A stretch of 64,000 bases of DNA from Sphingopyxis witflariensis (GTDB taxonomy: Bacteria; Pseudomonadota; Alphaproteobacteria; Sphingomonadales; Sphingomonadaceae): the NCBI RefSeq assembly GCF_002205635.1, contig NZ_NISJ01000011.1:62001-126000 (forward strand). Direction: 5' to 3'. Positions 20,414 to 58,124 of the stretch are shown here, piece after piece. Position 1 is the stretch's first letter, and every line of letters starts with the position of its first letter. The notes beneath the pieces were generated by a model. It searched no databases and was not told where the DNA came from. It was given only the letters and a program-made list of their open reading frames with translations. Both the position numbers and the translations under genes were made by a program.

Positions 20414-20425
20414 GAAAACGCGCCT

Positions 20426-23625: not shown

Positions 23626-23708
23626 ACTCTCTTTGCCTATACGTGCCACCGAGGATTGATTCCGTGTCATCTTGATATTTTCTTTTTAGAATCAAACCTG
23701 TGAATAAA

Positions 23709-25103: not shown

Positions 25104-25825
25104 CAACGTTCCCCCATTCCATTCACTCTGACTTCGACACGCCGGTTCGCTGGCGTTCGTTCACCATCCAATGTTTCGACCCGAAGATCCTTCTCGCCGC
25201 GTCCCGACACGGCAATCGTATCGGCCGGGATACCCGCAGCACCCATCATGTCGGCAATCACCCGCGCACGCGCGACGGACAGCTTGTCATTATAGGCGTC
25301 GGACCCCGACCGGTCGGTGTGCCCGACGACGGTGAATGCCGTCCAGCCGCAGCGGGCGCGGTTGTCGGACATGAAAGCAACCGACTGACCGGCATCGGCC
25401 GGCGCAACGATCGAATCCCAGTCGAAGAAGAAGGTTGATGCCACCTCCGGCGGACAATTGTCGGCGGGTGGCAGCGGCGGCGCAATCGGCACGTCGGGCG
25501 TCGGCGACGGGCGGCGGGTCATCATGCCATAAGCAAAATCGCAACGCCGCAGGCTCTCGCCATCCTTGATACCCGACTTCAAAAAGCCGAGCGCGATACC
25601 GCACTGGACCTTTGCTTCGGATGCCCAGGTATAGACATTGCTATTCGCCGAAACGACCGACGTATCGGTCGCGGCCGCGAGCGCCGCGTCATACCGTTTT
25701 TGCACTTCACCGCGCAGCTCGCGGACCGGAAGGTCGGCAAGCGCCTGGGCAAAGACGTTTCCAGGCTGGACACACGCCAGCGCAACAACCGCCCCCGCCA
25801 TCCATTTTGCCTTTTGGTGTCCCAT
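25103..25825 (-). CDS. OmpA-family peptidoglycan-binding protein
   Basis: A 240-residue envelope protein. It has a signal peptide (MAGAVVALACVQPGNVFAQA) and a C-terminal OmpA domain with FFFDWDSIVAPADAG, VVGHTDRSGSDAYNDKLS, ARARVIADMM and TPANRRVEVRV, the standard peptidoglycan-binding pattern. It lies 51 bases after the adhesin gene and overlaps the TolC gene. It probably anchors the secretion machinery or the outer membrane to the cell wall, next to the SleB hydrolase. Confidence 0.92.
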   Translation of the reverse strand: MGHQKAKWMAGAVVALACVQPGNVFAQALADLPVRELRGEVQKRYDAALAAATDTSVVSANSNVYTWASEAKVQCGIALGFLKSGIKDGESLRRCDFAYGMMTRRPSPTPDVPIAPPLPPADNCPPEVASTFFFDWDSIVAPADAGQSVAFMSDNRARCGWTAFTVVGHTDRSGSDAYNDKLSVARARVIADMMGAAGIPADTIAVSGRGEKDLRVETLDGERTPANRRVEVRVNGMGER

Positions 25826-25876
25826 GCTCCTATAGCCCCTACTTTATTGATCCACTGGTTTTTTATCGTAATGCGA

Positions 25877-42101: not shown

Positions 42102-42173
42102 GCGAAGACGCCGAAACACCCGCAACCGGCCCATTTCATTATGTGCCGGTCGCGGGTGTTTCGGCGTCTTCGC
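42102..42173. repeat. large near-perfect inverted repeat
   Basis: Arms of 29 bases at 42102-42130 and 42145-42173 pair at 28 positions around a 14-base loop. The right arm lies over the C-terminal codons of a decayed minus-strand gene and the left arm just after its stop codon. No U-tract follows on either strand. It may be a factor-type terminator, a cruciform site or the remnant of a mobile element. Confidence 0.8.
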
Positions 42174-42714: not shown

Positions 42715-42857
42715 CTGCCTGGCGATCTCAATGCGCGCACATCGTGCCGGGAGCCATACACCCCATTTTTACAAAGCCCACGGCTAGGTGCCACAGGGGC
42801 TCGGCCTCCGCATTCATACGCAAAGATTCGTTTTTGGTCTCAGATAGTGGAAAATCC

Positions 42858-42881
42858 GCACCGGCTGGCTGGGGCGGCAGG
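42858..42881. repeat. left attachment-site-like direct repeat
   Basis: This 24-base sequence recurs exactly at 53592-53615. Its reverse complement contains CCTGCCGCCCCAGCCA, which fits the 3' T-stem, acceptor strand and CCA of a tRNA starting TGGGGCG, the pattern of tRNA-Gln. The rest of the tRNA is absent next to it. Confidence 0.72.
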
Positions 42882-43244
42882 TTGAATATAAAACTACCAC
42901 CACATTGAAATAACGTATTTTTATTCCAATATTTTTGCAATTTACCACCGAGTCGCCCGCTTTTTTGGAGCGCTGCAGTGAGCCATTTTGAGATGCGGGT
43001 GACAAAATCGGCAGACCGTTCATCTACCGAGACAAACGGCATTCTAGATCAGCTCGCGTGCCCAATGATGTGTGAATAGGCGTGCAGAATGGAACCCCAC
43101 CCAATTTGAATTATCGCATTGAGATTGCTCCGGAACGACGGCTTGCGCGATACTGAGATCGGCGTGCATCGGGCCCCCTAAGGTGAGAAAAAAAGGACAC
43201 ATTCTCAGCGACCTGTTTGAAAAAACGGCGGGGTCCCGGTTTGC

Positions 43245-44333
43245 ATGCCTATCGACAGCGATGAGTGCAATATCAAGCAGTGCATGCCGATCTGGCGGGC
43301 ATTGGCGTCGCGGAATCCGGAAGAGGCACTTGCCGAACTACACCGGCCCAGACCGTTCGGCAGCGTGCTGGGCGAAATGATGGCCGAGCATGTCGCGATG
43401 ATGCGGCGCAGAGGGTACAAATACACATCGCAGCCCCAGTTGCTTCTTCGGTTCGACCGCTTCCTCCAGTTGCATCCAGGACCGGAAGCCGAGCCGCTAA
43501 GCGCCATGATCGATCGCTGGGCCGCAACGAATGCGACCCGTCATCACGCCGATGAATGCGAACAACTCACGCGCGTCTTTGCGAAAATCCTTCGTCACGG
43601 TGACCCGTCGATACCTATGCGACGACCGGACCCGAGACCGAAGAAGGAGGCCTCGAAGCAATGGCGAAAGCCTCATATCTACTCGCCTGCCGACGTGCGG
43701 CGGATGCTCGAGATCGCGCGTAACTACCCGTCGCCGCGGGCGCCACTTCGCCCGCCGAGCATGTACACCATGCTGCTCCTCGCCTATTGCGCGGGCTTGC
43801 GGCGCGGTGAGCTTGCTCGTCTCGATCTTGGTGATGTTGACCTGCACGCGGGTACCATCATCATCCGGCAGACCAAGTTCTTCAAGACCCGCATTTTGCC
43901 GCTACCGGACAGCGTTGTAGTCGAGCTTCGGGCCTACATCGATGCGCGGCGGCGTGCCGGTGGAGCACAGGATGCGCGCTCCGGCCTGTTCTGGCACGAG
44001 CGAGGCGATGGCCATTACACCCCGGAAATGATCACCTGGCTGCTCTCCGACGTCATACGCCGCGCCGGGTTGAAACCATCGCGAGGAAAAGCAGGCCCGC
44101 GCGTGCACGACCTGCGTCACTCGATGGTCGTGAACAGAATCCTCGAATGGTACCGGACGGGCATCAATCCGCAGGATCGCCTGCCGTTCCTCGCGACCTA
44201 TCTCGGCCATCGGGATATCAACTCTACCCTGGTCTACATCACCGTGACGCAGGAGCTGCTGCATTACGCAAATGAGCGGTTCCGGGCAATCGGCGCACCA
44301 TGCCTCAATCTGGGGCAGGAGGTGCTGTCATGA
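43245..44333 (+). CDS. tyrosine recombinase, first of a coupled pair
   Basis: A 362-residue site-specific recombinase. The catalytic pattern is visible: Arg in AGLRRGELARLDLG, HxxR in VHDLRHSMV, LGHRDINSTLVYI and a tyrosine close after it. The N-terminal half is the SAM-like core-binding domain. It overlaps the next recombinase gene by four bases (ATGA). Tandem, overlapping tyrosine recombinases are typical of recombinase-in-trio (RIT) elements; here only two of three are present. No good ribosome site precedes the ATG at 43245, so the start may be displaced by a truncation. Confidence 0.87.
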   Translation: MPIDSDECNIKQCMPIWRALASRNPEEALAELHRPRPFGSVLGEMMAEHVAMMRRRGYKYTSQPQLLLRFDRFLQLHPGPEAEPLSAMIDRWAATNATRHHADECEQLTRVFAKILRHGDPSIPMRRPDPRPKKEASKQWRKPHIYSPADVRRMLEIARNYPSPRAPLRPPSMYTMLLLAYCAGLRRGELARLDLGDVDLHAGTIIIRQTKFFKTRILPLPDSVVVELRAYIDARRRAGGAQDARSGLFWHERGDGHYTPEMITWLLSDVIRRAGLKPSRGKAGPRVHDLRHSMVVNRILEWYRTGINPQDRLPFLATYLGHRDINSTLVYITVTQELLHYANERFRAIGAPCLNLGQEVLS

Positions 44334-45334
44334 GAAGGGTTGATCGGCTCCCAGACCTGATGCGCGCGTTCTTCTACGAATGGCTGGTCGAGCAGCGCAA
44401 CGCATCCATCCATACAGTCCGGTCCTACCGCGACACCTGGCGGCTGTTGCTGCGGTTCGTCGAGCAGCGCGCTGGGAAGAAGGTAGCGATGATCACGCTG
44501 ACCGACCTTACCGCCAGCGAGGTTGCCGCGTTCCTCAGTCACGCCGAACATGAACGCGGCGGTACGATCGGCACGCGCAACTGCCGGCTTGCCGCGATCC
44601 GCAGCTTCTTCCACTTCGTGGCCACCAAGGATCCCGCGTCGATCGCGCAATGCGTCGAAATCCTCCATATCCCGATCAAGCGTGCTCCCGTGTCGGAACC
44701 GAGCTATCTGGATCCGGCGGAAGTGACGGCGATCCTCAGTCAGCCAGACCGTTCGACCGTTGAGGGCATGCGCGATCATGCGCTGCTCTCGTTCCTCTAC
44801 AACAGCGGCGCACGAATACAGGAAGCGCTCGACCTGTGCCCCGAAGCAATCCGGTTCAAAAGCCCGAACTGCGTGCGTCTGATCGGCAAGGGTCGAAAGG
44901 AACGCATCTGCCCGCTCTGGCCGGAAACGGTCCTGCTGCTGTGCAAGCTGCTCGAGCGGCAGCCACGGGCACCGGACCAGCGGCTGTTTGTCAACCGCTA
45001 TGGCGAACCGCTCAGTGCCTCGGGGGTCCGGTTCAAGCTTGCTGCCTACGTGAGGGCAGCGGCCGAAACCATGCCAACGCTGCGTGCCAAGCATGTGACG
45101 CCACATGCCTTCCGACACGCCACAGCCGTGCATCTCATCTCGGCGGGCGTCGACGTTACGGTCATCCGAAGCTGGCTCGGCCATGTGAGCCTCGACACGA
45201 CCAACCACTATGCCAGGGCCAATCTGGAAACGAAGCGGAAAGCCCTGGAAAAGGTCGCCGTTCCGACCACACCCCGCGGCAAGCCATCCTGGAAACGCGA
45301 TGCAAGCGTACTCGCCTGGCTCGATACGCTCTGA
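44330..45334 (+). CDS. tyrosine recombinase, second of a coupled pair
   Basis: A 334-residue site-specific recombinase with the N-terminal core-binding domain (FFYEWLVEQRNASIHTVRSY) and catalytic domain: Arg in YNSGARIQEALDL, Lys in IGKGRKERICPL, HxxR in HAFRHATAVHL and LGHVSLDTTNHYAR with the nucleophilic tyrosine. GGAGG and the ATGA overlap fix the start at 44330. It probably acts with the recombinase encoded upstream. A 14-bp inverted repeat follows immediately. Confidence 0.9.
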   Translation: MRRVDRLPDLMRAFFYEWLVEQRNASIHTVRSYRDTWRLLLRFVEQRAGKKVAMITLTDLTASEVAAFLSHAEHERGGTIGTRNCRLAAIRSFFHFVATKDPASIAQCVEILHIPIKRAPVSEPSYLDPAEVTAILSQPDRSTVEGMRDHALLSFLYNSGARIQEALDLCPEAIRFKSPNCVRLIGKGRKERICPLWPETVLLLCKLLERQPRAPDQRLFVNRYGEPLSASGVRFKLAAYVRAAAETMPTLRAKHVTPHAFRHATAVHLISAGVDVTVIRSWLGHVSLDTTNHYARANLETKRKALEKVAVPTTPRGKPSWKRDASVLAWLDTL

Positions 45335-45335
45335 A

Positions 45336-45402
45336 ATAATGCGGAGGAATACGGGCAAAAACGGCGAAAATCCGCCAATCAGGCCGCGTTCCTCCGCATT
45401 AT
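45336..45402. repeat. inverted repeat after the recombinase pair
   Basis: ATAATGCGGAGGAA (45336-45349) and its exact reverse complement (45389-45402) surround 39 bases. It starts two bases after the recombinase stop and abuts the truncated IS110. It fits the right terminus of a RIT-like element; no matching left terminus was found upstream of 43245. Confidence 0.65.
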
Positions 45403-45418
45403 GGCGACCTCGTGATTA

Positions 45419-46207
45419 GTGAAACGCGGAAAGACCGACGCTGCAGACGCAGAGGCGATTTGCGAGGCGGTTTCCCGCCCGACGATGCGCTTCGTTCCAA
45501 TCAAATCGAAAGAGCAGCAGGCGCTACTCTCTATGCACCGCGCACGCGATCTTTTCGTGAAGCAGCGAACCCAGCTCATTAACATGATGCGCGGGATGCT
45601 GGCAGAGTTTGGTATCACCATACCTGAAGGTATCGGGCGCGCGCTGATAAAGGCGCGTCAGATCGTAGAAGGGGAAGCCCTCGATACGCCAGCTGAGGCT
45701 TCGCAAATGGCGGCCGTGCTCGGCGAGCAAGCCTTGAACATCCATTTAAGGTTGCGAGAGATCGATCGCGCTCTCGCGGCTTGCCAGCGTGAGAACGCTG
45801 CTGCTTTACGTGTCGCGACCGTTCCTGGAGTCGGCCCGATCACCGCAACGGCAATCGTCGCTTCGGTGCCTACCCCGGAATTGTTCGCCTCAGGTCGCCA
45901 ATTTGCAGCCTAGCTGGGACTGACGCCGCTACAGAAATCGAGCGGCGGCAAAGAGCGGCTTGGGCGCATCAGCAAAATGGGCGACAAGTATATCCGGCGG
46001 CTCCTGATTACAGGCGCGACCTCAATGGTGCGGCGTGCGAAGGAAAGACCAGAAACCGTAGATCCGCGCTTGGTCGACCTCTTGGCACGCAAACCTACTC
46101 GCGTGGCGACGGTCGCGATGGCGAATAAAATGGCTCGCATGATATGGGCGATCATGCTGCGAGGCGAAACCTACCGCCCACACCATACTCCAGCACTAGA
46201 AGGCTGA
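45419..46207 (+). pseudogene. IS110-family transposase, truncated and with internal stop
   Basis: The frame starts abruptly at KRGKTDAADAEAICEAVSR, a motif about 90-100 residues into IS110 transposases, so the DEDD catalytic N-terminus is gone. It continues through VATVPGVGPITATAIVA, a helix-hairpin-helix segment of the transposase_20 domain. A TAG at 45911-45913 splits QFAA from LGLTPLQKSSGGKERLGRIS, where a tryptophan is usual. The rest reads on to 46207. The element cannot make active transposase. Confidence 0.85.
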
Positions 46208-46435
46208 TATCCTGTAGCTATCTGACAGGAGGAAAGATTTACGAGGTTGTAAGCGCGATGTGAAATGATGGCGATACCGGTCAAGCCGGGAGCAGAGACA
46301 ACCCGCTATAAGTCAGAGGCATAAAAGCCTGTTAGTCCGATTGGGACTTTGCTCACGGACCCCATCATGGCCAGCAGTTATCATTGGCTGCACAAACAGG
46401 CCGAACAGACGACTGCACTTGACTATCGCAAACAT

Positions 46436-46681
46436 TTATATTGAACTTGCAACGCGGGGGCCATCCACAGAAGACTGATAGCCATTCTCGGGGGCATCGA
46501 CCCAATCGCCGCGCGCATAGCTGCCATAAAGCACGATCTTGAAGATGCGGCTCTGCTTCTTCCATTTGGAAGTGCCCATCGCATGCGCTGCCTCGAACTC
46601 CTCAAAGAGGACGCGCACGACATGCGCCAGTTCGCGCTGCTTGGATTGCGGAAGATGATCGAGGGTCGTTCGCATCGGCAC
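46436..46681 (-). pseudogene. MNT nucleotidyltransferase (HEPN-MNT fusion type), 3' truncated
   Basis: The 81-codon frame begins TTLDHLPQSKQRELAHVVRV and includes the nucleotidyltransferase motif KIVLYGSYARGDWVDAP. Full-length relatives continue with a DYDLL-type metal-binding strand and a HEPN domain to about 300 residues. Here homology ends at GYQS and the following codons derive from a sequence resembling the end of the neighbouring IS110. The element probably inserted into this toxin/antitoxin-type gene. It lies in the same direction as the HTH and ArdC-like genes. Confidence 0.6.
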
Positions 46682-46735
46682 AACCTTAGAAAGCCGTTCG
46701 ACCGGATGGCAAGCACCATCCGGTCGAACCCGATA

Positions 46736-46990
46736 TTATAGCCAGGGCCAGACCGCTCGTGGAAAACGCGCATGGAGGCAGCGTGACCACATCCCCAGTG
46801 CGCGAGCAAAGTCCTGTATCACCTGCTCGACGGTGATCCCATGACGGGCAGCAAGCTCTTCATAGCTCGCATCGTCGAACCGGACCGACAGAAAGATATC
46901 ACCCTGCCGCTTGGTCATCTTGGCAATGGCGATGGCCAAGCGGCGCTCGCCATCCGCCTTGGTAACGGTGGACAGATCGCGGCGTCTCAT
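46736..46990 (-). CDS. sigma-70 region 4-like helix-turn-helix protein
   Basis: An 84-residue protein with RQGDIFLSVRFDDASYEELA followed by ARHGITVEQVIQDFARALG, the arrangement of a sigma factor region 4 HTH. No sigma region 2 is present, so it is more likely a small regulator of mobile-element genes. Its ATG overlaps the ArdC-like stop by four bases (ATGA). Confidence 0.75.
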   Translation of the reverse strand: MRRRDLSTVTKADGERRLAIAIAKMTKRQGDIFLSVRFDDASYEELAARHGITVEQVIQDFARALGMWSRCLHARFPRAVWPWL

Positions 46991-47880
46991 TTCCCTTCCC
47001 CTACTAAGGCCAGCAGATAATCTGCGGCCTTGCTGGCCTGGGACGCTGCGCGGAAGATCGCCTTCTCGTCGCCGCGCAGTACCGACAGCCAGGACGCGAT
47101 ATAGTCGCTATGCCGCACCGTCGGGGCGATCCCGAGCGAAGCGCAGGTAAATGCTGCCGCCATCTCGGCGACAAGTTCTTCTTTCGCATAGGCTTCGGAA
47201 CCGAACCTGCCCGTCTGGTCGCGATCCAGCCTGCTACTGTGGCCAACCCAATGGCCAAGCTCATGAAGCGCCGTCCGAAACCAGTTGATCGGTTCGTGAA
47301 AGGCCATCTGCGGCGGCACCTGCACGAAGTCATGGCTCGGACTGTAAAAGGCTTCGCCGCCGCCAATGTTGAACCGCGCGCCGCTTGCAGCAATCAGCGC
47401 GTCGACCTCGACGATGGCAAGCACCGGATCGGCAGATGCAACCGCTGCGGTAAAATCTTCGGGCAACCCGTCGCACTGATCGACGTTGAACACGGTGAAG
47501 CGCTTCAGGAAAGCCACCTGCCGCGCTTCGCGATCCTCTCCCCGCGCAGTTTCCGCTTCGGCTTTCGGCGTGAAGCGGTCGGCGTAACAGATAATCGTGC
47601 CCTTCTCGCCGCGCCGGACATGTCCGCCCGCCGCCTCGGCCTGCCGGTAGGTGAGCCAGCGCTGCGACGCAAAGCCCCGCCCGATAACCTCTGCCCACAG
47701 GATCAAGACATTGATCCCTGAATAGCGCCGAGCAGTTCCGGCGTTGTGCGGCATGGTGCATCCGCACGCCGCGCTATCCCAAGGCTGCACCCAAGGCAGC
47801 CGCCCTTCTTCCAGTTCGGCGCTGATCCGGCTGGTGACCTCGGAATAGAGGCTCTGCCGCTCGACATTATGCTTGGCCAT
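46987..47880 (-). CDS. ArdC-like antirestriction protein with zincin domain
   Basis: A 297-residue protein common on conjugative elements. The N-terminal ArdC_N (DUF1738) ssDNA-binding domain has LYSEVTSRISAELEEGRLPW and YSGINVLILW with the conserved PHN-type segment. The C-terminal metallopeptidase domain has HELGHWVGHSSRLDR and a later acidic KEELVAEMAAAF. Such proteins protect incoming DNA from host restriction. It opens a minus-strand operon with the sigma-like gene and the truncated nucleotidyltransferase. Confidence 0.9.
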   Translation of the reverse strand: MAKHNVERQSLYSEVTSRISAELEEGRLPWVQPWDSAACGCTMPHNAGTARRYSGINVLILWAEVIGRGFASQRWLTYRQAEAAGGHVRRGEKGTIICYADRFTPKAEAETARGEDREARQVAFLKRFTVFNVDQCDGLPEDFTAAVASADPVLAIVEVDALIAASGARFNIGGGEAFYSPSHDFVQVPPQMAFHEPINWFRTALHELGHWVGHSSRLDRDQTGRFGSEAYAKEELVAEMAAAFTCASLGIAPTVRHSDYIASWLSVLRGDEKAIFRAASQASKAADYLLALVGEGK

Positions 47881-48429
47881 TTCCCTTCTCCTTCAAAACC
47901 ACCGCAGCCCGGCCCGGAAGGGGCGCAGGGGGGCGGCAGGAAGGAGTCGGCAGGCCCGCGACATCGGGCGGGCTGCACCCGAAGGACCGGAACGAAGAGG
48001 AGGACCCGCGAAGCGGGTTGCGGCCCGACCGGGCGGGGCTAGAGGCGAGTGACGCCCTCCTGTGCTCCTGCCGTGCCCGGTTCAATAACGCCGCCGCGAA
48101 GCGGTGTCCGCATGCGCGCCAGCGGCGCCCTACAAACAAACGACTCGAACAACGATCGCGCCGGTCATGGCGCGTCATTTGCGAACGCGGCCGTCGCCGA
48201 CGGCCTCATTTACCGGATGAGCACGTCCGCGAGACACTATGAGAGAAAATAATTCAATCTACGCCGCAGCCGCACGGAACCGCCCATAGATGCCGGTGGA
48301 CGCACGCAGCCCTATGCCAGAGCACGAAGCCAAAAAGCGCAGTTTTCTAGGGTGTTGACGATGGCGTTCGTGATCCCCTTCTCTGTCCCCCGTCGACGCA
48401 AGTTCCTTCAACAGATGGAGAAGCAAGTC
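47881..48429. other. GC-rich intergenic region
   Basis: No convincing gene is seen between the ArdC-like start and AlpA. It should contain divergent promoters for the two. Short frames on both strands lack family features. Confidence 0.5.
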
Positions 48430-48651
48430 ATGGTATCTCAGTCCCCCCTCCGCTTGATGCGCTTGAATGAAGTCCTCGACCTGACCGGGCTCAGCCGGGC
48501 AACCCTCTACCGGAAAATCCAGGCCGGAACTTTCCCGGCGCAGCATAAAATTGCAGAGCGCTGTTGCGGCTGGCGCGCGGGCGAGGTCGATGTGTGGCTG
48601 CGCAATCCCGTCAGCTTCACCGTCGACTATCTCCAGCGCGAGCCCGCATGA
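48430..48651 (+). CDS. AlpA-family excisionase-like regulator
   Basis: A 73-residue DNA-binding protein of the AlpA/MerR-like winged-helix group: LRLMRLNEVLDLTGLSRATL, YRKIQAGTFP and WRAGEVDVWL. AlpA proteins activate integrase or excision genes of P4-type islands. GGAG lies nine bases before the ATG at 48430; the open frame extends left with no better start. It fits the P4-type integrase at 52143. Confidence 0.88.
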   Translation: MVSQSPLRLMRLNEVLDLTGLSRATLYRKIQAGTFPAQHKIAERCCGWRAGEVDVWLRNPVSFTVDYLQREPA

Positions 48652-48706
48652 CCGACCATAAGCGTAGCCCCGCGCCGCCGCAGCGGCGCGGGGTCGAACA
48701 TTCGGC

Positions 48707-49030
48707 TCAGTCGGCCGGGTTCCAGATGAGCGCGTAGCCGTCTTCGCCGTCCTGACCGGCGGCGCGGCCGAGGTTGGCATAAATCCGGCGCGGCCCGAAC
48801 TCGGGTGCGGCGAGCGTCAGCGACACATAGGGTTTGCCCGATGCTTCGCCGGTGCGGACCCAGCCGGCGCCAATTTCGACGCCTTCGGAATAAACGCGAT
48901 AGTCGGGCTGGACGTCGCCGCTCTTCGAGCGGTTGGTGCGGATCTCGATGCTCGCGCGGATCGAGAGGGTCTTGAGCTGGCCCACGAAACCTTCTTCGAT
49001 GGTGCCGTTTACAAAGCCGATGGATGCCAT
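48707..49030 (-). CDS. DUF736 family protein
   Basis: A 107-residue protein of the DUF736 family, which is found on plasmids and ICEs of alphaproteobacteria. MASIGFVNGTIEEGFVGQLK and LAAPEFGPRRIYANLG are typical. The function is unknown. The start codon at 49030 no longer has its ribosome site: a group II intron begins ten bases upstream, on the opposite strand, and has moved the original AAG half of AAGGAG to beyond 51292. The gene is probably silent. Confidence 0.85.
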   Translation of the reverse strand: MASIGFVNGTIEEGFVGQLKTLSIRASIEIRTNRSKSGDVQPDYRVYSEGVEIGAGWVRTGEASGKPYVSLTLAAPEFGPRRIYANLGRAAGQDGEDGYALIWNPAD

Positions 49031-49598
49031 TGGTCGTCTCGTGCGCCAAGAGTGGTGGGTAGGATCCACCACGCGCGATTATTGTCTCTGCGGGGTGAAA
49101 GGCCCCGTCCTCCACGTGCCGCAACACGGGGAGCGAAGTGGATGGGTGAGGTGAACCGGGTGCCTCCGGCGAGCCGTAAATGAGCAGAACCCGTCAAAGC
49201 CGGACGACCGGAGGACTTCCGCCCGAGGTTGGTCCGGCGAGCGTATCTGCAATGGAAAGGGTAACCGAACCGATGGCTGAAGCCCCGGGACAAAATGGAA
49301 TCCGCCAAGCCGGAAGTGGGCGGATCGGTCGCAAGACCGGCGGAGTGCCGATGCCCGCTGAGATAACGGGCGTCAGGGGCGCGCGGATAGCCGCGCGTCA
49401 GTTGCAGGGCCAGCTTGCGGTGCCCTGCAACCGGAATCCGAACGGGGTAGAGTCGGTTCCTAAAGCAGATGAGGGGACGATAGTTGAACTTGGGAACCTT
49501 GCTGCGGCATCTCCTAACGAGATGATCGAGGCGACCGATGATCGCCGCAGCAAGGGGCGGAGCCTCCGTAGTAGTCCGCGAACGGGAAAGCCGTTCAC

Positions 49599-51167
49599 AT
49601 GGCGAAGGGAGGCAGTGGGTTGAGCAGGCCAGCAGGAGGTGGGCGCAGGCCCGGCGCGGTGAATACCGCGTTCGTCCTCGACATGCAGCGCAAGCTCCAC
49701 CGGTGGAGTACCGCGAAAGCCGATCGGGTCTTCGCGGATCTGTTTAATATCGTATGCGACCGCAGAACGCTGGACGAAGCATGGCGAAGGCTGGCCCGCA
49801 ATCGGGGCAGCCAGACACCCGGTACAGATGGCGTTACGCGGAAAAGGGTCGAAGAGCGGCCCGGCGGAGCGGCGGGGTTCCTCGAGGACATCCGAGAGGA
49901 GCTACGCGGCGGCATCTATCGCCCGGAACCTGTACGGCAACGGCTTATCCCGAAGCCAGGCAGACCGGAGAAGATGCGCCCGCTGGGCATTCCGACGCTC
50001 AAAGACCGACTGGTGCAAATGGCTTTGAAGCTCGTGCTGGAGCCAATCTTCGAGGCGGACTTCTACCCGACCTCGTATGGCTTCCGGCCCGGTCGAAGCA
50101 CTCATGATGCATTAGGTGCCATCCAGCGCAGAATGCACCCAACGGCACACGGTCCATCACTGTACCGATATGTGATCGAAGGGGATATCAAGGGCTGCTT
50201 CGACGCCATCGATCACCATGTCCTGATGAATCGGGTGCGCAAGCGGATCGGGGACCGAAAAATCCTCCGGATCGTGCGTGCGTTCCTCACTGCAGGCATC
50301 ATGGTCGAAGGCACCGTCCGCCACCCGGTAACGGGAACACCGCAGGGTGGCATCATATCGCCATTGCTGGCCAATATATATCTGACGGCCATCGATGAAC
50401 GATACGGGCGGTGGTCGCTTCGCCCCCGTGAACGACCACAGAACGCGGCCGACCGCCGTCACTATGACCGGCAACGAGGAAAGCCGACGTTTTATATGGT
50501 CCGGTATGCAGACGACTTTGTCGTATGCGCCGACGGGACTCGCGAAGAGGCCGAAGCGGAAAAGCAGGCGCTGGCGGCGTTCCTGAAAGAGGAACTCTGC
50601 ATGGAGTTGTCGCTGGAGAAGACCAAGATCACGGCGGTCGAGGAGGGCTTTGACTTCCTCGGCTACAACGTGGTGCAGACCAAAGCGCGTCGAACCGGTA
50701 GACTGGTCGGCAATCTCTTCATACCGAAGAGCAAGCTGAAGGACCTGCGCCGCAAGATCAAGGTCAAGGTACGGGGAATGCCGACAGGTCGACCCCTCGC
50801 CTATCTCCTTGGCAGCCTCAATCCCATCATCACCGGGTGGCGAAATTATTATCGCTACGCCACCCACGCCACGAGGGACTTTAACAATCTCGACTGGTGG
50901 ATGTGGGGTCGCGTCTGGCGCTGGCTCAGGAAGAAGCACAAAGGCCGCAAGTTGCACGAACTGCGGCGGCGCTTCACAGACCCAGCGAAGAGCAACTGGC
51001 GATGGGCCGAAAATGGCGTGTCGATCAGGACGTTCCTTGAAGGAGGATCGTTCCGCTACCCGTACCGGGGCATACGAATACCGAATGGATGGAACGAACC
51101 CAGCGAGCAGTTCCGAAAGGGCAATGTTCACTTCTGGTCTTCGATCAACACCCTCGCCAAACTGTGA
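49599..51167 (+). CDS. ltrA: group II intron reverse transcriptase/maturase
   Basis: A 522-residue intron-encoded protein that helps splice the intron RNA and copies it into target DNA. Reverse transcriptase blocks include TPGTDGVTRKRVEER, RQRLIPKPGRPEKMRPLGIP, YGFRPGRSTHDAL, GTPQGGIISPLLANIYL and the catalytic VRYADDFVVCA near 303. The C-terminal maturase (GIIM, group II intron maturase-specific) domain covers roughly 380-470 (LNPIITGWRNYYRYA). No HNH endonuclease domain is seen. Confidence 0.95.
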   Translation: MAKGGSGLSRPAGGGRRPGAVNTAFVLDMQRKLHRWSTAKADRVFADLFNIVCDRRTLDEAWRRLARNRGSQTPGTDGVTRKRVEERPGGAAGFLEDIREELRGGIYRPEPVRQRLIPKPGRPEKMRPLGIPTLKDRLVQMALKLVLEPIFEADFYPTSYGFRPGRSTHDALGAIQRRMHPTAHGPSLYRYVIEGDIKGCFDAIDHHVLMNRVRKRIGDRKILRIVRAFLTAGIMVEGTVRHPVTGTPQGGIISPLLANIYLTAIDERYGRWSLRPRERPQNAADRRHYDRQRGKPTFYMVRYADDFVVCADGTREEAEAEKQALAAFLKEELCMELSLEKTKITAVEEGFDFLGYNVVQTKARRTGRLVGNLFIPKSKLKDLRRKIKVKVRGMPTGRPLAYLLGSLNPIITGWRNYYRYATHATRDFNNLDWWMWGRVWRWLRKKHKGRKLHELRRRFTDPAKSNWRWAENGVSIRTFLEGGSFRYPYRGIRIPNGWNEPSEQFRKGNVHFWSSINTLAKL

Positions 51168-51197
51168 GGGCCACCCACGGCCTCGGCCGTGCATGGA

Positions 51198-51231
51198 GAG
51201 CCGGATGCAGGGAAACTCGCACGTCCGGTTC
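51198..51231 (+). ncRNA. group II intron domain V
   Basis: The 34-base hairpin begins GAGCCGGATGCAGGG, has the AAAC-type loop and closes with TCCGGTTC. This is the conserved catalytic domain V. It lies 30 bases after the maturase stop and 61 bases before the proposed 3' splice site. Confidence 0.88.
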
Positions 51232-51292
51232 GGCGAGAGGCGCGAAGAAACCGGCCACCGCGAGGTGGCACGGCGCTTCGCGCCTACTCTAC

Positions 51293-52142
51293 CTTGAAAT
51301 TGCCGCAAGGACCATCCCTGCGACATGGGCGGACCTAAGACCGGCGCATGAGGCGTCCCGCGTACCCGCAGGGCCGCAGCGTCAGCGGAGGACTTGAGGC
51401 GGTCGATTATTTGAAAGCGAAGCGGCGGCGAGGAGACGGCGCAGCCGGCGGGGAAATAATCGCACCGCAGATGGTTACGTCGGGCGCCGTGCCGGTCCAG
51501 GTCAACTCGCCCGTCGCCGGGGATGGTCTTCGGCTGAATGGGAGGAAACACTGCAGGATCGGATCAGAGGCAAGATCGGAGGAAAGTGGGGAAATGAGAC
51601 GCACGAACTGCGGCGCCGCGAATGCCCACACGCTGACGGCCCGACGTCTGCATCCTACTGGTCGCTTTGCCGCCAGGACATCCAGAATCGCGACGGCGCA
51701 CCGACATTTCGAAAATGCGATGAGTTGCCCATCGCTCCCGTCGATTTGGCGCGTTTGTACAATCCGGCCCCACCGGCAGCGGCCATAGGCGGTGCAACAC
51801 GATCTTTCATCGGTCGGTCTCTGATTGCGACCCAGGGGCCGTTCGGTGATGGAGGCGATATTCTGCAATGCAGATATCGTTTAGGGCGGCGCGAGTTTTC
51901 GCTCCGCCTTTTCACCTTTCCTCTTCCCCGCTTCGTGTCGCGGGAGCGGCGCGGCGCCATCATCGAACCGTGCTTAGAAAAACGCACCCTTCTCACGGCC
52001 GCAGGCGCAGCGGTGCGTGCCCGAGCCTGCGGGCTAGCCGTCGTAGCGCCAAGAAGCGAGACAAGAGTGGGCGCGAGACCGCTGGCGGCCCCCAGCGCCG
52101 TCAGTGTGCGCTCATTTGAGGCTGCGCTCGATTGGTGGACTT
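51293..52142. other. region without a recognisable gene between intron and integrase
   Basis: Both strands have only arginine-rich frames of GC-rich DNA. The first part should be the displaced upstream region of the DUF736 gene (reads AATTTCAAG on the minus strand up to 51293). I see no family. Confidence 0.5.
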
Positions 52143-53384
52143 TCACGCCGCTTTGGCGCGTATGCCCTTTGCCTCGGCTTCATCAAGATAGTCGGCCCAC
52201 CACTGCATCATCGGCCGGCGATGTGCGAGATAGCGCGCTGAGTTATATGCCGCGCGCACGCCCCTTGGCTGATGGGCAAGCTGATTTTCGATCCAGTCGG
52301 GCTCGAACAAACCGCTCTCATTAAGCACGGTGCTGGCAAGTCCCCGAAACCCATGGACGGTTGCTTTCCCGCGCAAGCCCAGACGATACATGATGTCGAG
52401 CATCCTGTTGTCACTGATGACTCGCGACTTCGAATGCGCGACCGGAAACAGGTATCGGCCCAACCTATAGTTCCCAGCCTTGCGATAGACGTTAAGCTCC
52501 TGAATTTCGTCGAGCAGGGCGAGGGCCTGTCGCGGCAACGGCACGAGATGCTCGGATCGCATCTTCATCCGATCTGGCGAAATCCGCCACAGCGGCTCAG
52601 GACTATCGAGGTTCTCGAACTCGTCCCACTCGGCGAAACGGGTCTCCTGGGTGCGCACCATCGTGAGAATCGTCCAGCGCAGGGCAAGGTGGCTCATGCG
52701 CTCGGCGCCATCCGCGTTCAACTTCATGAAGAACGCCGGCAAATCCTTCGCCGCAACCTTCGGACGGTGCTTCACCGGCCGCGCCCTCGCCATCGCAGGC
52801 GTGAGGTCGCGGCACGGATCGCTTTCGCAGCGACCGTCCGGGATCGCATAGCGAAATATTTCGCTGCAGTGGTTCTTCACACGATGCGCCATCTCGATTG
52901 CACCGCGCGATTCGATTTTGCGAACTGCCTCGAGCATCTGGCGCGGCGTGATCGTGCCGATGTCGAATTTGCCAATGAAAGGGAAGATGTCGGCCTCAAG
53001 CCGCCCGGACACAAGCGCCGCGTAACGCGGTGTCCATGACAGAGTGCGCGTATCGAGCCATTCGCCCGCTACATGTTCAAACGTGTTGAGAGACTCGACT
53101 GGGTTGCCCGCCGCCTTGGCTTTCGCATTCTTGCGCTCTTGGGATGGGTCTAGACCCAGCGCGAGCTGGTGCTTCATCATCTCGCGCCACGAGCGTGCGG
53201 CCAAGAGCGTGGTCTCGGGAAAGTTGCCCCCAGAGAGCAGCTTCTGCTTTCCTTCAAATCGATATGCGAAGCGCCATGCTTTCGAACCGTTGGGCTGCAC
53301 GAATATGAAAAGACCGCCCCCATCGGACTTCTTATAGGGCTTACTCGCGGGCTTGAGCGCCTTGATTGCGATGTTGGTAAGCAT
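52143..53384 (-). CDS. P4-type tyrosine integrase (DUF4102 arm-binding domain)
   Basis: A 413-residue phage/island integrase. The N-terminal arm-binding domain shows LTNIAIKALKPASKPYKKSD and GGGLFIFVQPNGSKAWRFAY. The catalytic domain has Arg in MVRTQETRFAEW, HxxR in VHGFRGLAST and a tyrosine in RAAYNSARYL. The ATG at 53384 follows GGAAAGGG; longer frames to 53492 lack a site. The gene starts about 210 bases inside the right 24-bp repeat, the usual position for a tRNA-targeting integrase, so it probably integrated the 10.7-kb element. Confidence 0.92.
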   Translation of the reverse strand: MLTNIAIKALKPASKPYKKSDGGGLFIFVQPNGSKAWRFAYRFEGKQKLLSGGNFPETTLLAARSWREMMKHQLALGLDPSQERKNAKAKAAGNPVESLNTFEHVAGEWLDTRTLSWTPRYAALVSGRLEADIFPFIGKFDIGTITPRQMLEAVRKIESRGAIEMAHRVKNHCSEIFRYAIPDGRCESDPCRDLTPAMARARPVKHRPKVAAKDLPAFFMKLNADGAERMSHLALRWTILTMVRTQETRFAEWDEFENLDSPEPLWRISPDRMKMRSEHLVPLPRQALALLDEIQELNVYRKAGNYRLGRYLFPVAHSKSRVISDNRMLDIMYRLGLRGKATVHGFRGLASTVLNESGLFEPDWIENQLAHQPRGVRAAYNSARYLAHRRPMMQWWADYLDEAEAKGIRAKAA

Positions 53385-53591
53385 GTTGGTACCCTTTCCC
53401 TGCGCGAACGGGTTTGGATCCCGAACGCTAAAATTTGTTGGTAGGAGCGAATTTGCTACCAACAATCTGGGCAAAAAGAGGGTGAGCTGCAAGGGACCGA
53501 CCTGAGCGGAAGTGCGATCCCGTCTCAGGATAACCCATTGTTTTCATTTACTTCGTGGAGACGTTCTGAGCATCTCTGGAACGCTCTGACA

Positions 53592-53615
53592 GCACCGGCT
53601 GGCTGGGGCGGCAGG
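53592..53615. repeat. right attachment-site-like direct repeat
   Basis: Identical to 42858-42881 over 24 bases, with flanks different on both sides. The sequence to its right (from 53616) does not continue as a tRNA, so the intact tRNA must be elsewhere, for example beyond a second element to the right. Confidence 0.72.
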
Positions 53616-53717
53616 ATACTCAGCCGGTTCAGTCATAACTATTTGAAATAAAAGAATTTCTGCCCTCACCTTCTCCGGTGTCGCCACGCCGGGGTGCTTC
53701 CAAGGGGGCCACGGCCA

Positions 53718-55700
53718 ATGACGCGCATCCAGAACAGCATCCGCAAGGACGGAACCTATTATTTCCGCCGCATCATCCGTTTAGGCAACGATAAGCCTTT
53801 CCGGATACGCTTGTCGCTTCGGACAACGGACCACTGCCGGGCGCGGATCATGACGCCCACGCTGGTCGTGAAAAGCGAAACGCTACGCATGAGCATGATG
53901 CAGACGATGAACCGCGATGGATTGACCGCCGATCAACGGGCCGAGATTTTTCGGCGTCAGATGCTCCGCGAGCGCGATCGCCTCGAAGCCGGACACGCGC
54001 AATTGCAACTCGCCGATCTTGGCGACCAGCTCCCGGAAGAGGCGCTCGAAACCCACCTCGACTTGAGCGAAGCTGTCAGCGGCGACCTTGCGCGCAACGG
54101 CGAGACTGGTCCGCTTCTTGTGATCCGTATCCCGCCGGAGGATCCGGAAACGGGCGAAGAACCGCCCATCGAGATATTGACCTGGGAAGACTATATCGGC
54201 GCGCTCGCCGGTGATGACGCCAACGCTTTAGCGCCGCTCCATCTCAGCGACCTGCAAATCCCGCTGTCGCCGCTCAATCTTCAGATGGCCAAGCGCATCA
54301 TCCACCAGGCCAGCGTTCAGGCGATCAGGGAATATCGCGAGATCGTCGCCAATCCCGGTGCGGTTTACCTGCCCGCCCTCATGGCCCCGCCCGCGCCGTA
54401 TGTCGCGCCCGCACCGGCGCCGATCCTGTCGGCGCCGCGGCCTCCGGCCGCCGATGCGCTTATCAACGCTACCGACGGATCCCCGTCTCCGTGGCGCACA
54501 ATGACACCGTCCGAAGCCGCAGCTGCCTTTATCGAGGCCAATCCGCGCACCGGCGGTCTTGACGGCAACGCGCGCAAGAAGGGACCGAGTTGGACCGAGA
54601 AAACCCGCGAGCAGTTCAAGCTGCCGGCGCTCCTGCTCGAGCAAATCATGGAGGGACGGCCCCTCGCCAGTGTCACGGACATCGATCTCGGCAAGCTGAA
54701 CGCGCACTTCAACCGGTTGCACGGGCCCAGTTTCCGAAAGTCCCCGAAACACCGCACCATGACCATCCAGGAGATTGGGGACCAGACCGACGCGCTTGTG
54801 CAGGCGAAGAAAATTCCGGAGGAAGAAATCGGCCTTGGCATCGGCACGACGAACCGGCATTGGGGTTTTCTGCGCCAGCTCACCGACTGGTTCGCGCGTC
54901 ATCAGACAATCGCGAGCCTCGATTATTCGGCCTTCATCATTGCCGATGACCGCGACCCCCGCACGCTTCGCGACACTTATTCGATCGAAGAGGGCAGACA
55001 GCTGTTCGGCTTGGCGCCATGGTCGGGGAGCGCGTCGATCAGCCGCAGGTTCGCGCCGGGCAAGACAATCGTCCACGACGCCTGTTACTTTGTGCCATTG
55101 ATCGCTTGGTATACCGGCCTCAGACGTGAGGAAATTTGCGGTCTTGAACTGGCCGATATCGAGCAGGAAGATGACATCTGGCATTTCAATATCCGCGACA
55201 ACACGGTTCGGAAGCTCAAGACCAAGACATCGAATCGACTGGTTCCTTTCGCGGACGAGCTCGTGCGGCTGGGCCTTCCGGACTACGTCGGGTCAATGCG
55301 CGATGCCGGGGAGACATTGCTTTTTCCCGAGCTGACCGCCGAGAGTGGCAAAGGAACGCTGGGTGATGCCTTTTACAAGCTACACTGGGGCAAAATCGCA
55401 TCGCGCCTACCATTCATCGAGCGCGGACAGGCCATGCATTCATTCCGCCACACGCTGACCGACGAGCTCAAAGCCAATATGGTTGATCAAGAGGTGCGTG
55501 CGGACCTTGTTGGCCACAAGATCAGCTCGGAAACCGGCGGCCGCTATTCCAAGGCCACACGCCTCGCACATTTGCGAGATGCGGTGGCAAAGGTGCCGAT
55601 GGTCACGGAGCATTTGAAACCGCAAACGATTTCGCTACTCCCGCCAGCGAAACGGAGACCTCGCCGAGCGCGGTCGCCCCGAGATATGTCCAGCAACTGA
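53718..55700 (+). CDS. large tyrosine integrase with DUF6538-like N-terminus
   Basis: A 660-residue integrase, longer than usual. The N-terminus RIQNSIRKDGTYYFRRIIR resembles the DUF6538 segment of atypical integrases. A proline/alanine-rich linker (PPAPYVAPAPAPILSAPRPP) lies near 230. The catalytic domain is complete: Arg in AWYTGLRREEICGLEL, Lys in LKTKTSNRLVPF, HxxR in MHSFRHTLTDEL, LVGH and a tyrosine in GGRYSKATRL. It starts about 100 bases right of the direct repeat and may mark the left end of a second element. An alternative start is at 53694. Confidence 0.88.
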   Translation: MTRIQNSIRKDGTYYFRRIIRLGNDKPFRIRLSLRTTDHCRARIMTPTLVVKSETLRMSMMQTMNRDGLTADQRAEIFRRQMLRERDRLEAGHAQLQLADLGDQLPEEALETHLDLSEAVSGDLARNGETGPLLVIRIPPEDPETGEEPPIEILTWEDYIGALAGDDANALAPLHLSDLQIPLSPLNLQMAKRIIHQASVQAIREYREIVANPGAVYLPALMAPPAPYVAPAPAPILSAPRPPAADALINATDGSPSPWRTMTPSEAAAAFIEANPRTGGLDGNARKKGPSWTEKTREQFKLPALLLEQIMEGRPLASVTDIDLGKLNAHFNRLHGPSFRKSPKHRTMTIQEIGDQTDALVQAKKIPEEEIGLGIGTTNRHWGFLRQLTDWFARHQTIASLDYSAFIIADDRDPRTLRDTYSIEEGRQLFGLAPWSGSASISRRFAPGKTIVHDACYFVPLIAWYTGLRREEICGLELADIEQEDDIWHFNIRDNTVRKLKTKTSNRLVPFADELVRLGLPDYVGSMRDAGETLLFPELTAESGKGTLGDAFYKLHWGKIASRLPFIERGQAMHSFRHTLTDELKANMVDQEVRADLVGHKISSETGGRYSKATRLAHLRDAVAKVPMVTEHLKPQTISLLPPAKRRPRRARSPRDMSSN

Positions 55701-56019: not shown

Positions 56020-56928
56020 ATGAATGAGCTTATCCAGATTGGTCCGATCAGCCCGCTACGCCAGCGCCTGCTCGACGACATGGCGATGCGGAGGTTCGGG
56101 CCGGAGACGCAGCGTAATTATCTGCGCGACGTCGGACGGTTCGCGACCTGGCTCGGGCGCTCGCCGCACACCGCGAGTGCGGAGGAGGTCCGCCAGTTCC
56201 AGATCGATCAGCAGCAAGCGGGCGTTCCGGTGCCGACGATGAACAGCATCGTCAGTGCGCTCCGCTTCTTCTTCACCGAGACGCTCGACCGCCCCGATCT
56301 CGCGCGCAAGCTGATCCGCGCCAAGCAGGTTCGCAAGATCCCCGTCGTCCTGACCATGGCCGAGGTGAAGCGGCTGCTCGATGCCACGCGCTGCCTCAAG
56401 CACCAGGCTGCCCTGTCGGTTGCGTACGGCGCCGGGCTGCGCGTCGCCGAGGTCTCAGCGCTCAAGGTCAGCAATATCGACAGCAAGCGCATGCTGCTGC
56501 GTGTCGAGCGCGGTAAAGGCGGACGCGACCGCAATGCCATGCTGCCCGAAGGCTTGCTCCTGCTGCTGCGCGACTGGTGGCGCGCCGGACGACAGCAGGG
56601 CGTGCTGCTTCCTGAGGGCTGGCTCTTCCCGGGGCAGAGTGCCTCGGCCCCGATCAGCACCCGCCAGCTCCACCGCGTCGTCGTCGAGGCGGCTGAGGCG
56701 GCCGATATCGACAAGCGCGTCGGGCCGCACACCTTGCGCCACAGCTTTGCCACCCACCTGCTCGAGGACGGCGTCAACATCCGCGTCATCCAGGCGCTGC
56801 TCGGACACGCCAACCTCAATACCACCGCTTTTTACTTGCAGGTCGCAACGAAGACGACACGCAAGGTGACCAGCCCGCTCGACAGGCTCGCGCTGGCATC
56901 GCCCATCGAGGAGCCACCCGACGGCTGA
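56020..56928 (+). CDS. tyrosine recombinase associated with IS91-type transposase
   Basis: A 302-residue XerC/D-like recombinase. The core-binding domain includes MAMRRFGPETQRNYLRDVGR. The catalytic domain has Arg in GAGLRVAEVSAL, Lys in RGKGGRDRN, HxxR in PHTLRHSFATHLL and the tyrosine in NLNTTAFYLQV. Pairs of such a recombinase with an IS91-like transposase five bases downstream are common. Its role in transposition is not settled. Confidence 0.93.
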   Translation: MNELIQIGPISPLRQRLLDDMAMRRFGPETQRNYLRDVGRFATWLGRSPHTASAEEVRQFQIDQQQAGVPVPTMNSIVSALRFFFTETLDRPDLARKLIRAKQVRKIPVVLTMAEVKRLLDATRCLKHQAALSVAYGAGLRVAEVSALKVSNIDSKRMLLRVERGKGGRDRNAMLPEGLLLLLRDWWRAGRQQGVLLPEGWLFPGQSASAPISTRQLHRVVVEAAEAADIDKRVGPHTLRHSFATHLLEDGVNIRVIQALLGHANLNTTAFYLQVATKTTRKVTSPLDRLALASPIEEPPDG

Positions 56929-56933
56929 GGCTG

Positions 56934-58124
56934 ATGCGCACCTCGCTCGAGGTCGCCGACATCTTCCGTGCTGCAGGGCCCGCGTATCGCACCGCGCATG
57001 CCGGGCATCTGAGCCTGCATCAGCTCAAGATCATGTCGGCGATCGAACATTGCCGCACCGCCGCGCTCGGTGGCCACGTCGAGGCTTGCACCGACTGTGG
57101 CCACTGGCGCATCGCGTACAACAGTTGCCGCAACCGACATTGCCCCAGATGCCAGGGCGCTGCTGCACGCACCTGGCTCGAGGCCCGCGAGGCCGACCTG
57201 CTCCCGGTCGGCTATTTCCACGTCGTGTTCACCCTCCCTGCCGAGGTCGCCGCGATCGCCTTCACCAACAAGGCGCTGGTCTATGATCTGCTGTTCAAGG
57301 CGGCGGCCGATACGATGCTGACCATCGCCGCTGATCCCAAGCACCTCGGCGCCCGGATCGGCATCACCGCGGTCCTTCACACATGGGGATCCGCCCTCAC
57401 CCATCATCCCCACATCCACATGATCGTGCCGGGCGGCGGCATATCGCGCGATGGGACGCGCTGGATATCCGCACGCCCCGCCTTCCTGCTCCCCGTGCGC
57501 GTGCTCGGCGCGCTCTTCCGCCGCTTGTTCCTGTCCCGGCTGCGCGCGCTGCACGATGACGGCAAGCTCGCTTTCTTTGGCAGCCTCACGCATCTTGGCG
57601 AACGACGCGCTTTCCTGCGGCACCTCTCTCCCGTCAGGAAGAAGCGCTGGGTGGTCTATGCCAAGCCGCCGTTCGCCGGGCCCGAAGCGGTGCTCGCCTA
57701 TCTGTCGCGCTACACCCACCGGGTTGCGATATCGAACAGCCGCCTCCTCCGCTTCGATGCGGACGGCGTCACCTTCCGATATAAAAACTACCGCGAGGCC
57801 GGCACCGCGCGGCAGCAGATCATGACGCTCGCCGCCGACGAGTTCATTCGCCGCTTCCTCCTCCACGCCCTGCCCCGCGGGTTCCACCGGATACGCCACT
57901 ATGGCCTGCTCGCCAGCGCCAGGCGCAAGGACCATCTCGAACGCGCCCGCCGTTTGCTCAATGTCGCCCCCGCGCCGGCCGACGATCCGCCCGCCGAGCT
58001 CGAAGCTCCGCCGCTGTGTCCGTGCTGCGGCGGCACCATGGTGATCATCGAGGTCTTCGAACGTCGCTATCAACCCCGAGCGCCGCCACCGCCCTCACTC
58101 TCATCCGGGACACAGGCGCCGTGA
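56934..58124 (+). CDS. IS91-family transposase (HUH, rolling-circle)
   Basis: A 396-residue transposase. The N-terminal zinc-binding domain has CTDCGHWRIAYNSCRNRHCP and a further CxxC-type pair. The HUH metal-binding motif is HHPHIHMIVPGGG near residue 157, and the nucleophilic region is RYTHRVAISNSRLL with RYKNYREAG. A final CPCC pair closes the protein. Such elements move by rolling circle and can carry adjacent genes by one-ended transposition. It follows the recombinase gene by five bases. Confidence 0.93.
   Translation: MRTSLEVADIFRAAGPAYRTAHAGHLSLHQLKIMSAIEHCRTAALGGHVEACTDCGHWRIAYNSCRNRHCPRCQGAAARTWLEAREADLLPVGYFHVVFTLPAEVAAIAFTNKALVYDLLFKAAADTMLTIAADPKHLGARIGITAVLHTWGSALTHHPHIHMIVPGGGISRDGTRWISARPAFLLPVRVLGALFRRLFLSRLRALHDDGKLAFFGSLTHLGERRAFLRHLSPVRKKRWVVYAKPPFAGPEAVLAYLSRYTHRVAISNSRLLRFDADGVTFRYKNYREAGTARQQIMTLAADEFIRRFLLHALPRGFHRIRHYGLLASARRKDHLERARRLLNVAPAPADDPPAELEAPPLCPCCGGTMVIIEVFERRYQPRAPPPPSLSSGTQAP

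Follow-up and report, generated by a model that had tools for sequence, protein, structure and literature searches.

Attachment repeats of an integrative element in Sphingopyxis witflariensis derive from the end of a tRNA-Gln gene located on another contig

Introduction

The accretion of integrative and conjugative elements (ICEs), integrative and mobilizable elements (IMEs) and cis-mobilizable elements (CIMEs) through an attachment (att) site that is already resident is established, according to the available text of PMC5704250, which describes CIMEs as having kept their att sites and lost their integration and transfer genes. The kind of array considered in this report is therefore already known. 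Its subject is element A, which occupies positions 42858–53615 of a 64,000-nucleotide stretch of the Sphingopyxis witflariensis draft genome (the window), together with its right neighbor, element B.

Among sphingomonads, the available text of PMC3516476 describes pPDL2 of Sphingobium fuliginis as an integrative mobilizable plasmid with a tRNA-Ser att site. A literature search on tRNA-Gln genomic islands in Sphingopyxis found no paper on that combination. Prophage satellites and islands of the P4/CP4-57 type are a further known kind. Against this background A is an element of an ordinary kind, and it is its apparently displaced position that is of interest.

Results

The genome comprises 4.31 Mb in 38 contigs, and the window corresponds to C2:62001–126000 (C2 being the window's contig). 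The features that carry the argument are as follows, with coordinates in the window.

42858–42881, plus strand: left att copy, the 24-mer GCACCGGCTGGCTGGGGCGGCAGG, whose reverse complement is the last 16 bp of tRNA-Gln and 8 bp downstream
53592–53615, plus strand: right att copy, an identical 24-mer, which doubles as the left edge of B
52143–53384, minus strand: IntA, the integrase of A, a P4/CP4-57-like tyrosine integrase of 413 aa (Pfam Arm-DNA-bind_3, Phage_int_M, Phage_integrase)
53694–55700, plus strand: int53694, tyrosine recombinase of B, likely start 53721 (Pfam)
42767–42857, no strand: X', 91 bp outside A, recognized by similarity to tRNA-Gln downstream DNA

The preliminary description of this DNA had placed exact repeats at the two ends of A, and the copies do match one another without a mismatch at precisely those coordinates. 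The two exact copies of the 24-mer in the window compare with 0.00 expected from 100 shuffles, and allowing up to three mismatches added no further match in the window. A search of the whole genome for the 19-base core, with up to two mismatches, returned three places, namely the two window copies and C32:285838–285856; the control pattern, the core read backwards, returned one. The third copy forms the 3' end of an intact tRNA-Gln(TTG), as determined by ARAGORN, confirming the proposed derivation of the repeats from a tRNA-Gln 3' end. No second tRNA-Gln ending in this way was found, and the 46 tRNA matches in the genome could include a tRNA-Gln that ends differently. ARAGORN found no tRNA inside the window, in keeping with the earlier statement that neither repeat is attached to the remainder of a tRNA and that the intact gene lies outside. 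As in a tRNA-targeting island, the direct repeats correspond to a tRNA 3' end and an integrase from a family associated with that tRNA adjoins an att copy; A is, however, not presently at the tRNA gene, which is on C32.

IntA begins at ATG 53384, 207 bp inside the right copy, where a P4-type integrase had been predicted at about 210 bases, and it also matched NCBIfam PRK09692 under that model's cut-off. Residues R244, H344, R347, H371 and Y380, which we take to be the tyrosine-recombinase catalytic residues, are invariant in 14 aligned sequences (IntA and 13 relatives). From 80 loci kept as relatives of IntA, the 14 closest named ones (L024–L037) were examined over the 600 bp upstream of the integrase. 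All 14 had tRNA sequence there, as an intact end or a fragment: intact tRNA-Gln in eight, tRNA-Gln 3' fragments of about 45 bp in three, tRNA-Pro in two and tRNA-Trp in one, such that tRNA-Gln sequence adjoins the integrase in 11 of them. The Sphingobium chlorophenolicum locus (L037) has a tandem arrangement, with an intact tRNA-Gln 9.3 kb from the displaced fragment that adjoins the integrase. These comparisons support the assignment of IntA as a putative integrase acting at tRNA 3' ends.

Directly past the right att copy is a second element with its own integrase, as in an accretion array, int53694 starting 78–105 bp to the right of that copy. Matches of at least 91% to int53694 were found in four of 80 congeners (G000, G003, G012 and G079), the 24-mer lying some 100 bp upstream in all four, and weak matches (31–36%) in nine further genomes of the genus. 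The junction of A, 24-mer and B recurs in G012, where the start of an IntA gene, interrupted by another recombinase unit, lies ahead of the 24-mer and int53694 (91.6% nucleotide identity over 2459 bp). On C1 of that genome the 24-mers are at 883574 and 935922 and tRNA-Gln is at 955560, the order running toward the tRNA. Homology to the window starts at the 24-mer in G003 and G079, and in G078 an IntA-type right end is followed by the 24-mer and then by a different interior flank. Judged by eye, the neighbors of B in G003 and G079 are MFS-like and acyl-CoA-dehydrogenase-like genes. G079 also has a relaxase-bearing block (Pfam) that starts 8 kb to the right of the 24-mer and shows 96.8% identity with C2:134325–145031 and 94.7% with the downstream DNA of the G003 tRNA-Gln. 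B is therefore probably a larger mobilizable island.

On the left side of A, X' together with the 24-mer shares 83% identity with the DNA that directly follows tRNA-Gln downstream on C32, and 82–84% with the corresponding DNA of G003, G012 and G087. We refer to this downstream DNA on C32 and in those three genomes as X, of which X' is the window counterpart. Between G003 and G087, X is 99.7% identical over 339 bp, compared with 80.5% over the whole aligned region of 6380 bp. X therefore appears to travel with elements, and the contrast in identity between two species weakens the view that it is simply the native flank of tRNA-Gln. X' is probably the end of a further, third element to the left of A, the other end of B in circular order, or a scrap of the tRNA-Gln flank. 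The GDH and HPP genes to the left of X' were considered as tRNA-Gln flank and rejected, as their matches lie apart and, outside this genome, none of those listed spans both. Between the HPP gene and X', at 42102–42173, is a near-perfect 33-nt inverted repeat with a 6-nt loop (94% complementary), perhaps a terminator. Arrangements without A were found as 24-mer-int53694 in G003 and G079, whose left flanks differ, and as X-24-mer-tRNA on C32 and in G003, G012 and G087; the exact arrangement X'-24-mer-int53694 was seen in none of the relatives.

Across the genus, 79 of 80 genomes gave a long match to tRNA-Gln, at E 1.4e-23 or better, G017 (85% complete) having only a short copy. Among the matches listed, a short displaced copy of the core is present in at least 24 of the 80, G017 included. 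Thirty-nine tRNA-Gln loci were chosen, of which one, where the motif could not be located, was dropped. Up to 1.4 kb of downstream DNA was compared for the remaining 38, among which several genomes occur twice, and fell into 23 groups; across groups, blastn gave no match longer than 80 bp. Seventeen displaced core copies examined in detail, three of them with one core mismatch, had at least nine different interior flanks. Dispersal of the 24-mer without relation to tRNA, which would have spoken against a tRNA-derived repeat, was not seen, as the core has three copies in this genome and lies at tRNA-Gln or in short displaced copies in the congener matches listed; nor did any related genome examined have the same genes without the repeats.

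Some further observations concern the DNA near tRNA-Gln. C32:283.8–285.1 kb encodes a tyrosine integrase of a third kind, some 0.75 kb away from the genome's own tRNA-Gln. Beside it are remnants of an NYN-like gene (by eye), which in G012 sits between int53694 and tRNA-Gln. A flank found past the displaced core of G032, and close to the tRNA-Gln of G066, is separated from tRNA-Gln by about 250 kb in G004 and by 0.9–1.5 Mb in G006 and G080, positions that could reflect large islands or frequent rearrangement at this site.

Contig C32 extends for 285 kb downstream of tRNA-Gln and for 143 kb in the opposite direction. C2 was aligned along four relatives (G004, G015, G019 and G066) and is collinear with G015, G019 and G066 only at 1.7–26.9 kb, and with G004 to 20.9 kb. 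This core is distant from tRNA-Gln in the relatives (2.39 versus 2.82 Mb in G015, 0.96 versus 3.61 Mb in G019), and the core that follows it in G015 and G019 is on C7 here. The preliminary description had A as one of several tandem elements stacked at one tRNA gene. Membership in an array stands, given that B abuts the right copy and that G012 has the same junction. The present location at the tRNA does not, as tRNA-Gln is on C32 and C2 joins core DNA that is situated elsewhere in relatives.

One insertion sequence (IS) is present at 100% identity at C2:28.2 kb, C2:61.8 kb, C32:250.0 kb and the end of C7 (124–125 bp seen), and C2 itself ends inside a 92% copy of the same IS. Relative to the core, the copy at C2:28.2 kb is oriented like the one at the C7 end, which would be expected if a block had entered between directly repeated copies. 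The copies at C2:145 kb and the C7 end have opposite orientations and so are not one copy. The window thus falls within a non-collinear block of 118 kb or more, placed where G015 and G019 have an interval of about 5–7 kb. The interval is also a rearrangement point, because the C2 and C7 cores are far apart in G066 and G004. A simple reciprocal exchange between the IS copies at C2:28 kb and C32:250 kb was rejected, as the G015/G019 core past the C2 break is unmatched in C32:236–296 kb and sits on C7. We also rejected C2 being a plasmid. Searches of PLSDB, which covered window positions 42858–64000 and 1–25000, gave only small pieces among the matches listed (integrases, the intron described below, IS91, IS3 and P450 genes), and C2:1.7–26.9 kb is core in relatives.

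Besides IntA, the following features were identified in A.

48352–48651, plus strand: AlpA-type regulator and candidate excisionase (Pfam Phage_AlpA; PHROG 2790)
48707–49072, minus strand: DUF736 protein, probable start ATG 49032 by eye (Pfam)
46987–47880, minus strand: ArdC-like antirestriction protein with metallopeptidase domain (Pfam ArdcN and MPTase-PolyVal; PHROG 7245)
46736–46990, minus strand: small sigma-70 region-4-like protein (Pfam)
49041–51292, plus strand: group II intron, 5' of DUF736 (Rfam, Pfam, TIGR04416, intron-less alleles; last bases by eye)
43245–45334, plus strand: pair of overlapping tyrosine recombinases, 362 and 344 aa (Pfam; plasmid matches)
45419–46204, plus strand: interrupted IS110-family transposase, right limit by eye

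The AlpA, DUF736 and ArdC-like genes had been noted earlier, and Pfam recovered each of them. The Pfam scan covered 46 of 46 open reading frames (ORFs) of at least 80 aa that overlap the interval, and seven proteins of A were compared with PHROGs. In the 46 ORFs Pfam found neither a relaxase, such as an IME would have of its own, nor any family for the alpha-type primase, capsid-size or helper-dependence functions of a P4-like satellite. A is not a CIME, because it has kept a full-length integrase.

The group II intron is 2252 bp long, with a reverse transcriptase (RT)/maturase at 49599–51167 and domain V/VI at 51196–51292 (Rfam); the RNA fold of its 3' end has a z of -4.22. Intron-less alleles with equal flanks are present in Sphingopyxis sp. 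JAI128 (L024) and in the congener G019, and the ends of the intron were set at 49041 and 51292 from these flanks. Judged by these alleles, the intron is evidently a later insertion into A. The recombinase pair is common to alphaproteobacterial plasmids, recurring among the matches listed at about 79–90% identity in those of Shinella, Agrobacterium, Aminobacter, Salipiger and others, and is probably a nested insertion.

To the right of the integrase of B are the following features.

56020–58124, plus strand: IS91-type unit (recombinase and Y2 transposase), just past int53694 (Pfam; plasmid matches)
58648–60912, plus strand: AAA_13 ATPase, PADLOC candidate PDC-S06
61425–63992, minus strand: Hachiman helicase HamB (PADLOC, 1372.9 bits)
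C2:126037–126984, just beyond the window edge: HamA (Pfam PF08878, 203.7 bits)

HamB and HamA, next to the PDC-S06 candidate defence ATPase, constitute defence cargo. Elsewhere in the window, 18111–37300 has a very large, repetitive, adhesin-like ORF of 3807 aa with ABC-exporter-like, HlyD-like and TolC-like genes, and by eye resembles a LapA/BapA-type secretion locus. At 1–2670 a TonB-receptor-like gene is apparently cut by an IS3-family element (the cut was placed by eye), which is about 91–92% identical to plasmid copies of Rhizorhabdus and Sphingopyxis.

Discussion

We consider it likely that integrative elements accreted on a shared tRNA-Gln core and that the stack was later displaced from the tRNA. 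On this account A would belong to a sphingomonad family of integrative elements that use a P4-like integrase to recombine a short attP core with a tRNA 3' end, in this case the tRNA-Gln core. It would be one member of an array in which B, with the distant integrase int53694, abuts its right copy. Since the elements share the 24-bp core, each att copy could receive the next element. The array, or an X'-24-mer-A-24-mer-B piece of it, would then have lost its link to the tRNA and would now lie in the block of at least 118 kb that splits two core segments adjacent in two relatives, with IS copies near the block edges. The relocation was probably assisted by IS copies, and A may still be mobile.

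Several observations weigh against this account. In three Novosphingobium/Sphingobium relatives (L034, L036 and L037) the tRNA-Gln fragment beside the integrase runs from the anticodon loop to CCA over about 45 bp, versus 16 bp here. This argues against a simple 24-bp core for A, and because of it the left copy of A may be the product of another recombinase. The core used by the IntA family may differ between genera. Most of the left third of A is made up of foreign insertions, and the 380 bp immediately inside the left copy matched nothing in any locus compared, making the left end less secure than the right. Because the block was judged from four relatives aligned along C2, single genes in it may be core from elsewhere. 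No continuation of the block past the IS at C2:145 kb was found, and C32 or C2 may be misassembled in a draft of 38 contigs. The genus also seems to rearrange often, given that the flank shared by G032 and G066 is far from tRNA-Gln in G004, G006 and G080 and that G004 and G066 have the C2 and C7 cores at separate places.

The same present junctions are predicted if, instead of being displaced, the array was built at a site without a tRNA. B, or its circular form X'-24-mer-int53694, would already have been away from the tRNA with an intact 24-mer, which then served as a portable landing pad into which A integrated. If X is the other end of B, as suggested by the order 24-mer-int53694...X-24-mer-tRNA in G012, then X'-24-mer-int53694 without A is the expected circular junction of B. 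In G003 and G079 the 24-mer-int53694 unit lacks A and has no tRNA-Gln next to it on its stretch, and the identity contrast between G003 and G087 indicates that X moves horizontally. However, the DNA to the left of X' has no homology to the DNA adjoining X in G003, G012 or C32, and in G012 the A/B junction is close to tRNA-Gln. Rearrangement or contig breaks may also have separated B from a tRNA-Gln array in G003 and G079, the tRNA-Gln of G079 being 2.2 kb from a contig end. We regard this origin of the array as rather unlikely. The broader notion, that B carries an intact tRNA-Gln core beside its integrase to tRNA-less sites, that A targeted this portable core and that tRNA-specific islands can accumulate away from tRNA genes, is one we would advance only tentatively, as a doubtful though slightly better prospect.

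That the array is still at tRNA-Gln and is split from it merely by the draft assembly is improbable. C2 does end in an IS copy in an assembly of 38 contigs, and C2:134.3–145.0 kb has 97–98% identity with the downstream DNA of the G003 tRNA-Gln and with DNA at the G032 displaced core. Yet the sole tRNA-Gln found with this end is followed by 285 kb of C32 where the array would belong, and the core flank of C2 continues as the C7 core in G015 and G019. We give practically no credence to the 24-mers being a chance or dispersed repeat and the interval no element. We found no evidence in favor of that reading and rejected it on the shuffle expectation of 0.00 and the three copies in 4.3 Mb, and relatives of IntA lie at tRNA-Gln.

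With accretion followed by displacement as our preferred explanation, the window would represent a stack cut off from its tRNA. In the genus the tRNA-Gln 3' end acts as a hub for a wide variety of islands, and one 24-bp core is shared by several integrases. Such sharing makes stacking, joint excision and the swapping of island ends possible. If A did land on the core of B away from a tRNA, islands would need no tRNA gene in order to accumulate.

Compared with P4/CP4-57-type islands, A is alike in having an Arm-DNA-bind_3 integrase by an att core and an AlpA regulator (Pfam, PHROG, NCBIfam), and differs in that its 46 ORFs have no primase or capsid-related Pfam family and its cargo is plasmid-like (ArdC, DUF736). 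The locus resembles the accretion of ICEs, IMEs and CIMEs, as set out in the available text of PMC5704250, in its distant integrases with a shared att specificity, its stacking via a resident att site and its decayed members. Unlike the arrays in that text, this one is off the tRNA, and A keeps its integrase and has no relaxase detected by Pfam. The pPDL2 plasmid, in the corresponding text of PMC3516476, likewise has a sphingomonad integrase at a tRNA 3' end, but uses another tRNA, carries a replicon and had its integration shown experimentally. The IntA element of Sphingopyxis sp. JAI128 (L024) is like A in its integrase (91% aa identity), its DUF736 protein (92% over 72 aa) and its right end (82% over 232 bp including the core). 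It differs in that it sits at an intact tRNA-Gln, is without the group II intron and has 2.7 kb from IntA to the DUF736 block, versus 0.5 kb in A.

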